DNA of 64,000 bases from Bacteroidales bacterium (GTDB lineage Bacteria > Bacteroidota > Bacteroidia > Bacteroidales > GCA-2748055). The notes beneath the pieces are model-generated. The model did no database searches, was not told where the DNA came from, and was given only the letters and a program-made list of their open reading frames with translations. Positions within the stretch are counted from its first letter, which is position 1. Every line of letters begins with the position of its first letter. A program made the position numbers and the translations under genes. The stretch covers positions 1-64,000 of the forward strand of contig JAIPBT010000001.1 of NCBI GenBank assembly GCA_021738565.1. The letters are read 5' to 3'. Positions 29,025 to 30,409 of this stretch are shown piece by piece.

Positions 29025-29516
29025 ATGTCTGATTTCAAGCCTAATAAAAACGAGTTTGTTGATTTGGTATATACCATTCGAAAAAAAAGAGTGATGCTCG
29101 ATCAGGATCTTGCAAAAATGTTTGGTGTTGAAACCAGGGTGCTCAATCAACAGGTAAAAAGAAATATCGATAAATTCCCAGCATCATATATGTTTCAGCT
29201 TACCGCTGAGGAATTTAAAGATTTGAAATATAACATGAGATCACAATCTGTGATCTCAAGTTGGGGAGGCAGAAGATATGCTCCATATGCGTTTACGGAT
29301 AGGGGTGTTTTGATGCTTGCCAATGTTTTACCTTCTAAAAAAGCCGCAAAACTAAGTCTTCATATTGTGGACACATTTGTTGAGATAAAAAATATCCTTG
29401 CTGAAAATCAGCTCTTAAAAACCAAAATAGATAAATTGGAAAAAGAAGCTGCTAAGAAAAACAAAGTTATACAGACTTTTTATGCTATTTTACTGGAACT
29501 CAACAAAAAAACATAG
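29025..29516 (+). CDS. ORF6N domain DNA-binding protein
   Basis: RKKRVMLDQDLAKMFGVETRVLNQQVKRNIDKFPASYMFQLTAEEF...MRSQSVISSWGGRRYAPYAFTDRGVLMLANVL. Confidence 0.9.
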   Translation: MSDFKPNKNEFVDLVYTIRKKRVMLDQDLAKMFGVETRVLNQQVKRNIDKFPASYMFQLTAEEFKDLKYNMRSQSVISSWGGRRYAPYAFTDRGVLMLANVLPSKKAAKLSLHIVDTFVEIKNILAENQLLKTKIDKLEKEAAKKNKVIQTFYAILLELNKKT

Positions 29517-29523
29517 GGATCAA

Positions 29524-29556
29524 AATCTTGAGATCACAAATTGTGATTTCAAGATT
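29524..29556. repeat. 33-bp near-perfect palindrome downstream of ORF6N gene
   Basis: AATCTTGAGATCACAA a TTGTGATTTCAAGATT (15/16). Confidence 0.85.
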
Positions 29557-29575: not shown

Positions 29576-30409
29576 ATGAAGTATGAAAACAGAATAGTAG
29601 CATTTATCGATATACTTGGATTTTCAAGTATTATAAAAAATACTATGGATCACTCAAATTCATCCAGCAACGAAAATCCGCCTATTTCAGTTGTTGAACT
29701 TTTTAAGGTATTCAGCAGAATAAGATATTTAATGGGAGTAAGTGAGCCAAGTGATGATGTTCCATTATCAAGGAAAGTATCCCAGTTTTCTGATTCTATA
29801 TTTATTTCCTTTAATCCTGATGATGAACCCAGGGAATTCAACTATTTATTGGGTGAGCTTCTCTATCTACATATTGAATTGGCAAAGCACAATATTTTAA
29901 TCAGGGGAGGTATTTCGTACGGACCTTTAGTACATACCGATGATATTATATTTGGCCCTGCTTTGGTTCAGGCTTATCAACTGGAGAGTAGAGCCGCCAA
30001 CAGCCCACGAATCATTCTACCCCAAAGTGTTTATGAAAAGGATTCTGAATTCAACAATTTATTTCTAAATAAGGAGAGTGAATTCCAATTAGAAGAGCTT
30101 TTAGATTTAGATGAAGATGATTTCTATTATTTGGATTATTTCAAGAAATGTCAGAATGATAAACTTGGAGTCTTCACTACCGAAAATGAATATATAGAGC
30201 ATCTCATATGCTTGAGAGATATTATAACCAAGGGATTAAAAATGAGGGACCCAGGTATTTTTAGCAAATATGGTTGGATGAAAAGCAAATGGAACGCTAC
30301 TATTTCATATTATAAGCAATCTTCTAATCTAGATCAGCTTAAAAATTCTGGAAAAGCTGATTTATATAAATACTTCAACTCCGTAGAACTAATAAGTGAT
30401 TCAATGTGA
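29576..30409 (+). CDS. divergent class III nucleotide cyclase-like protein, function unknown
   Basis: IVAFIDILGFSSII (metal Asp), VSQFSDSIFIS, ILIRGGISYGPLVHTDDIIFGPALVQAYQLESRAANSPRIIL follow the class III cyclase layout. Confidence 0.6.
   Translation: MKYENRIVAFIDILGFSSIIKNTMDHSNSSSNENPPISVVELFKVFSRIRYLMGVSEPSDDVPLSRKVSQFSDSIFISFNPDDEPREFNYLLGELLYLHIELAKHNILIRGGISYGPLVHTDDIIFGPALVQAYQLESRAANSPRIILPQSVYEKDSEFNNLFLNKESEFQLEELLDLDEDDFYYLDYFKKCQNDKLGVFTTENEYIEHLICLRDIITKGLKMRDPGIFSKYGWMKSKWNATISYYKQSSNLDQLKNSGKADLYKYFNSVELISDSM

Follow-up and report, generated by a model that had tools for sequence, protein, structure and literature searches.

The control protein C.Kpn2I of a restriction-modification system binds inside its own coding region, where it acts as an elongation roadblock and stalls RNA polymerase (PMC6237814). 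BstA, a KilA-N-like prophage abortive-infection protein of demonstrated defence activity, has a cognate DNA element, aba, which overlaps its gene, measures 63 bp, lies at the gene start and is flanked by direct CCCGCC repeats (PMC8585504). In mycobacteriophage cluster A, the phage repressor is reported to stop elongation at scattered asymmetric stoperators, and immunity specificities diverge (PMC9283540, PMC6550527). Members of the KilA-N/Bro-N/ORF6N superfamily are predicted to bind DNA through a helix-turn-helix (Iyer et al. 2002, as cited in PMC8585504). These DNA-binding families are widespread in phages and bacteria, and they are little understood. In the open-access PMC literature, we found neither an earlier report of the in-gene palindromes described here nor a self-encoded target or specificity code for KilA-N, Bro-N or ORF6N proteins. 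Rickettsia palindromic elements are dispersed palindromic repeats scattered through unrelated genes. Here, starting from one Bacteroidales locus, we present comparative evidence that ORF6N proteins and their relatives most likely each bind their own gene, across the sampled bacterial phyla and phages.

The ORF6N locus and its two palindromes

The window, that is, the whole stretch of DNA analysed, comprises 64,000 nt of a Bacteroidales genome (contig JAIPBT010000001.1). On its forward strand, positions 29025-29516 encode a 163-aa ORF6N-domain protein (Pfam PF10543, E=4e-33; 114 bits against a gathering cut-off of 27.8), which is also matched by the PADLOC candidate defence family PDC-S05 (E=2e-49) and by the PHROG anti-repressor family phrog_4792 (E=9e-24). 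In the AF2 model of the protein, helices were placed at residues 26-33 and 37-46 (pLDDT >90), and confidence was lowest (about 53) at residues 71-80, the loop encoded by the in-gene palindrome. A Foldseek search of the PDB with this model returned nothing significant (best E=0.13), and no solved structures related by sequence to the protein were found. Based on the model and on covariation, the predicted DNA-recognition helix, T37-N47 (TRVLNQQVKRN), is encoded at 29133-29165 on the forward strand. It contains the putative specificity residues R38 (29136-29138), V39 (29139-29141), Q42 (29148-29150) and Q43 (29151-29153), which were assigned by covariation.

The first-pass annotation had reported a palindrome in this coding sequence, and the palindrome is real. 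It occupies 29232-29262 of the forward strand (AACATGAGATCACAA-T-CTGTGATCTCAAGTT; 15 + 1 + 15 nt), covering codons N70-S79 and the first base of codon 80, and has its centre at 29247, where codon 75 begins. The arms originally given for the core, TGAGATCACA/TGTGATCTCA, are exact. The near-perfect echo that had been noticed after the stop was also confirmed at 29524-29556 on the forward strand (AATCTTGAGATCACAA-A-TTGTGATTTCAAGATT), with 16-nt arms and one mismatched pair. This echo lies in the 59-nt gap that follows the ORF6N gene. It starts 8 nt past the stop codon, leaves 20 nt to the ATG of the downstream gene, and shares 88% identity over 25 nt with the in-gene palindrome. When 3 mismatches were allowed, the 3.98-Mb genome contained these 2 sites in all, the chance expectation for a 26-nt pattern with at most 3 mismatches being 0.00 per window. 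We considered that the echo might be a remnant of a second ORF6N gene, and an informal look around it noticed no ORF6N-like sequence beyond the palindrome itself.

The next gene (29576-30409, forward strand, starting 20 nt past the echo) encodes a 277-aa protein assigned to phrog_23933 (E=2e-35) and has no Pfam match. Its homologues occur in only 4 of 119 genomes of the order, so it is not a conserved partner, and it is probably outside the ORF6N system. The echo was therefore not adopted as an operator of this rare gene, although it may still regulate it within the window's genome. In another genome (locus L321), a phrog_23933 homologue lies close to a Bro-N-like gene whose coding sequence contains a palindrome. 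The ORFs listed for 20-40 kb of the window showed no restriction-modification genes.

Conservation of the palindrome and its covariation with the recognition helix

To the window gene we compared a sample drawn from Bacteroidota genomes, plasmids, genomes of many other phyla and viral contigs, comprising 234 unique ORF6N genes; as the loci were gathered by protein similarity, sampling was uneven and relatedness was controlled in part. Palindromes were scored in the loop flanked by F-x-FQL and AFTEQG against a null of synonymous codon resampling. A score of at least 7 was found in 89% of the 234 genes versus 2.4% in the null, and a score of at least 9 in 76% versus 0.3%; 15 of the 234 genes scored below 6. 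Scores of at least 9 were found in 2.65% of 754 unrelated ORFs, with antisense ORF6N frames and a Bro-N gene among the highest scorers. Homologues thus do not vary freely at the synonymous sites of the palindrome, and the DNA-level function that had been proposed for it is supported. The consensus consists of a TTGA-NN-T-NN-CAA half-site around one free base, and the median distance between the palindrome centre and the first Met codon of the ORF is 214 nt. Arm positions 4, 5 and 8 are variable in the alignment with pairing retained; for example, position 4 is 96% paired, mostly as A-T (92), G-C (50) or C-G (48). Furthermore, the palindrome was found in two reading frames. In 199 genes it encodes RSQ-x-V/A/G-TS, and in 17 genes it is shifted by one base and encodes other peptides (e.g., LVTNCDR); what is preserved is therefore not the peptide. 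The exact GGTCRC-arm pattern was near-exclusive to ORF6N genes and their edges: a scan of 148 genomes yielded 17 sites, nearly all inside or beside ORF6N genes, and zero control matches.

KilA-N, Bro-N and DinD-like genes, picked with HMMs, had been chosen as negative controls, pRha being too rare in Bacteroidota to serve as a comparison family. KilA-N and Bro-N could not be used as such, as both were positive for in-gene palindromes: scores of at least 9 were reached by 85.5% of 69 KilA-N genes (null 2.0%) and 47.5% of 59 Bro-N genes (null 0.7%), and also by 52% of 71 DinD-like genes (null 3.5%). The phenomenon is much larger than first noted.

We calculated the mutual information of arm bases with protein columns, excluding the palindrome-encoded residues. 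The signal for arm positions 4-5 peaked at residues 43, 44 and 47 in L010 numbering (R38, V39 and Q42 of the window protein), with a weaker signal at residue 48. In the AF2 model, the peak residues belong to helix 2 of the predicted helix-turn-helix (37-46 in the window protein), and this recognition helix is encoded about 100 nt upstream of the palindrome whose arm bases it predicts. At residue 47, Q goes with TCA (90 of 95), E with TCG (47 of 56), K with TTC (25 of 26), and R with TGC or TnC. At residue 43, K goes with G in both halves (103 of 103), while R goes with A or G in any mix. Trained on 90 genes, the code was correct for 96 of 100 held-out genes, the majority baseline being 52. When the nearest relative with a changed residue 47 was taken, the half-site differed in 180 of 182 comparisons, versus 9 of 182 for distance-matched relatives with the same residue 47; relatedness was handled by these held-out and nearest-relative tests rather than by a full phylogenetic model, and block exchange of helix and palindrome, which does occur, may make independent changes look more numerous than they are. 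For the window protein, R38 and Q42 predict GATCA-type sites. The half-sites of the in-gene palindrome are GATCA and those of the echo GATCA and AATCA, all in the predicted class. KilA-N (N to T, 34 of 34; D to G, 12 of 12) and DinD-like proteins (R to G, 25 of 25; E to C, 16 of 17) have codes that map to their own predicted recognition helices. These comparisons support an allele-specific, DNA-level match between each protein and a putative site in its own gene. Of the functions that the first-pass annotation had listed, self-binding is thus the one with strong support, since palindrome bases covary with residues of the recognition helix.

E. coli K-12 dinD (NC_000913.3 3817760-3818584, locus L584) carries the in-gene palindrome TGACCATTTCGAGGAGATCCTCGATATGGTCA, with GACCATTTCGAGGAGATCCTCGATATGGTC as the predicted DinD site. 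With a 540-nt dinD query, 4,645 E. coli genomes matched and 1,885 covered at least 80% of the query; many other E. coli genomes matched only from nt 247 onward. Five full-length alternative alleles are about 55-70% identical to K-12 over the first ~240 nt and 90-100% identical over the remainder, and the divergent ~240 nt spans both helix and palindrome. The palindrome of the common alternative allele is only half-matching. Coevolution of helix and palindrome could thus partly reflect their exchange as a block, as in this gene. Among the further dinD loci (L585-L591), one (L591) has a dinD gene whose annotation marks it as incomplete and which lies next to a transposase gene of the ISVsa5 family.

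Possible roles of the palindrome

We consider it probable that the ORF6N protein binds its own in-gene palindrome of ~31 bp and that this binding limits expression of the gene through an elongation roadblock. The protein would be a sequence-specific DNA binder, probably a homodimer, whose predicted site lies within the codons for a flexible loop in its DNA-binding domain, and R38, V39, Q42 and Q43 of the recognition helix would read the inner half-site (GATCA-CAA). Physical binding is suggested by the maintenance of the palindrome across phyla, frames and families and by its coevolution with the helix. Less certainly, protein bound about 210 nt past the start codon would block elongating RNA polymerase, so the gene would be self-limiting. 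By analogy with C.Kpn2I, such autorepression is the most likely consequence of binding. As the operator would be part of the gene, the mobile gene would bring its control loop along, whichever promoter it came to lie behind.

In some loci, flanking palindromes may serve as additional sites. Beside ORF6N genes the palindrome is strongly enriched: next to these genes but outside ORF6N ORFs, 51 consensus palindromes were counted in 829 kb, versus 1 in a shuffled control. These echoes lie mostly within about 200 bp of the ORF6N genes, many of them in the promoter region. Upstream echoes matched the class of their own gene slightly above chance (12 of 27 vs 8.1 expected, P=0.039), and downstream echoes matched the class of the neighbouring gene at chance level (7 of 18 vs 5.6). 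At one locus (L172, 2228-3025), the in-gene palindrome is degraded, but palindromes of its own class flank the gene on both sides, as though the site had been relocated outside it. An isolated class-TCG palindrome was seen in a 3-kb locus in which no ORF6N gene was detected (L100, 1508). On a Treponema plasmid, the ORF6N gene shares an operon with genes for the methyltransferase and the specificity subunit of a type I restriction-modification system (L114, 1477-2373), and a 4.1-kb Segatella copri plasmid (L118) has only two annotated genes, for ORF6N and a replication initiation protein.

In Flavobacterium, the ORF6N gene has a single syntenic position, following a CapK-like gene, and the in-gene palindrome differs among species together with the helix. 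At 24 of these loci (e.g., L246, L254, L256 and L260), an array of mixed-class, near-perfect palindromes, 1-6 in number, lies downstream of the gene. The classes in the arrays are independent of that of the gene, with own-class palindromes amounting to 9 of 53 versus 9.1 expected; self-exclusion was rejected, as the own class was neither depleted nor enriched. The chance-level class match of downstream echoes and Flavobacterium arrays is unexplained by plain autorepression. The ORF6N genes with low-scoring in-gene palindromes and the half-matching dinD allele also speak against the preferred reading. It is possible, but to our mind rather unlikely, that ORF6N, KilA-N and Bro-N proteins act instead against foreign replicating DNA and that the cognate palindrome restrains the protein on the DNA of its own gene. 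Palindromes of foreign classes would then give immunity to other alleles, which would explain the several non-self classes in the arrays better than autorepression does. BstA with its cognate aba (PMC8585504), the match of ORF6N to PDC-S05, and the own-class copies on both flanks of the degraded palindrome of L172 are consistent with this alternative. Nevertheless, aba is located at the start of its gene and needs terminal direct repeats, rather than being a palindrome in domain codons. For ORF6N, a role in defence is a database candidate only, and the Flavobacterium locus occupies a chromosomal position common to many species and is not an evident prophage. In a wider version that we entertain tentatively, KilA-N, Bro-N, ORF6N and DinD would form a self-recognition system, in which the palindrome tag of a gene is code-matched to the helix of its product and the protein acts only on, or spares only, own-allele DNA. 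Arrays of foreign tags would record or confer compatibility, and negative frequency-dependent selection would diversify helix and tag.

It appears improbable that the palindrome is mainly a recombination seam, whose exchange swaps loop and helix cassettes or deletes gene halves with the protein as a bystander. Several structures do fit such exchange. Tandem in-frame palindromes occur in ORF6N genes, the 5' part of E. coli dinD has been swapped between alleles, and some Flavobacterium array palindromes are hybrids, with a left arm of one class and a right arm of another, which suggests that array deletions ran through palindrome cores. At locus L104 (1497-1866), a truncated ORF6N gene stops just past its palindrome and is followed by three other-class palindromes at 34-bp spacing and then by a full ORF6N gene. 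However, a seam would leave the helix-palindrome code across phyla, frames and families unexplained, and no consensus palindrome was found at the Flavobacterium syntenic place in species without ORF6N there. The cassette-exchange or recombination role raised in the first-pass annotation therefore stands in part, as evolutionary history. The homing role raised alongside it is not supported, because no nuclease domain was found and ORF6N-free Flavobacterium alleles lack a consensus palindrome.

An mRNA hairpin acting as an attenuator or processing site is very improbable. A stem is possible in the transcript, but among mismatches at positions 1-11 of frame-0 genes, G.T (25) was rarer than A.C (60; other, 100). 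Moreover, the position-7 mismatches follow protein residue 43, as they arise because R there tolerates A or G, and echoes occur outside the CDS both upstream and downstream. The use of two frames, together with arm covariation that shows no G-U tolerance, argues for recognition of the palindrome as double-stranded DNA. A by-product of the RSQxVTS peptide, chance or neutral quasi-palindrome correction can be practically dismissed, since, conserved as that peptide is in the family consensus, the synonymous null falls far short of the observed frequency, other-frame genes use different peptides and the palindrome coevolves with a helix encoded about 100 nt away.

Self-binding, the preferred reading, has several implications. 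Covariation gives predicted binding sites for ORF6N, KilA-N and DinD-like proteins and a usable recognition code. The loop motifs RSQxVTS, NPDFxPVEFDGF and DHFxDVxKMV may be conserved largely because their DNA is a binding site. The functions of E. coli DinD and of the candidate defence family PDC-S05 become directly testable, and the sampled genes offer something rare, a large natural collection of cases in which protein and DNA coevolve within one gene.

Comparison with known systems

The 2 sites in the window's genome are at the ORF6N locus, unlike Rickettsia palindromic elements. Similarly, ORF6N sites are palindromic and occur almost only at their own gene, unlike the cluster A stoperators, which are reported to be asymmetric and to lie at many places in the phage genome; the likeness lies in a repressor that halts elongation, as proposed here for ORF6N, and in diverging specificities. 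As with BstA and aba, the ORF6N gene overlaps a class-specific DNA element with a cognate code, but the element is a mid-gene palindrome, and defence was demonstrated for BstA, whereas ORF6N is a database candidate. The closest parallel to the proposed roadblock is C.Kpn2I, as the predicted ORF6N site also lies inside its own coding region (29232-29262 in the CDS 29025-29516). C.Kpn2I is a restriction-modification control protein of another family, whereas the window protein belongs to ORF6N, and the putative ORF6N site differs in lying in the codons of the DNA-binding domain, in being near-universal in the superfamily and in having a readable recognition code.
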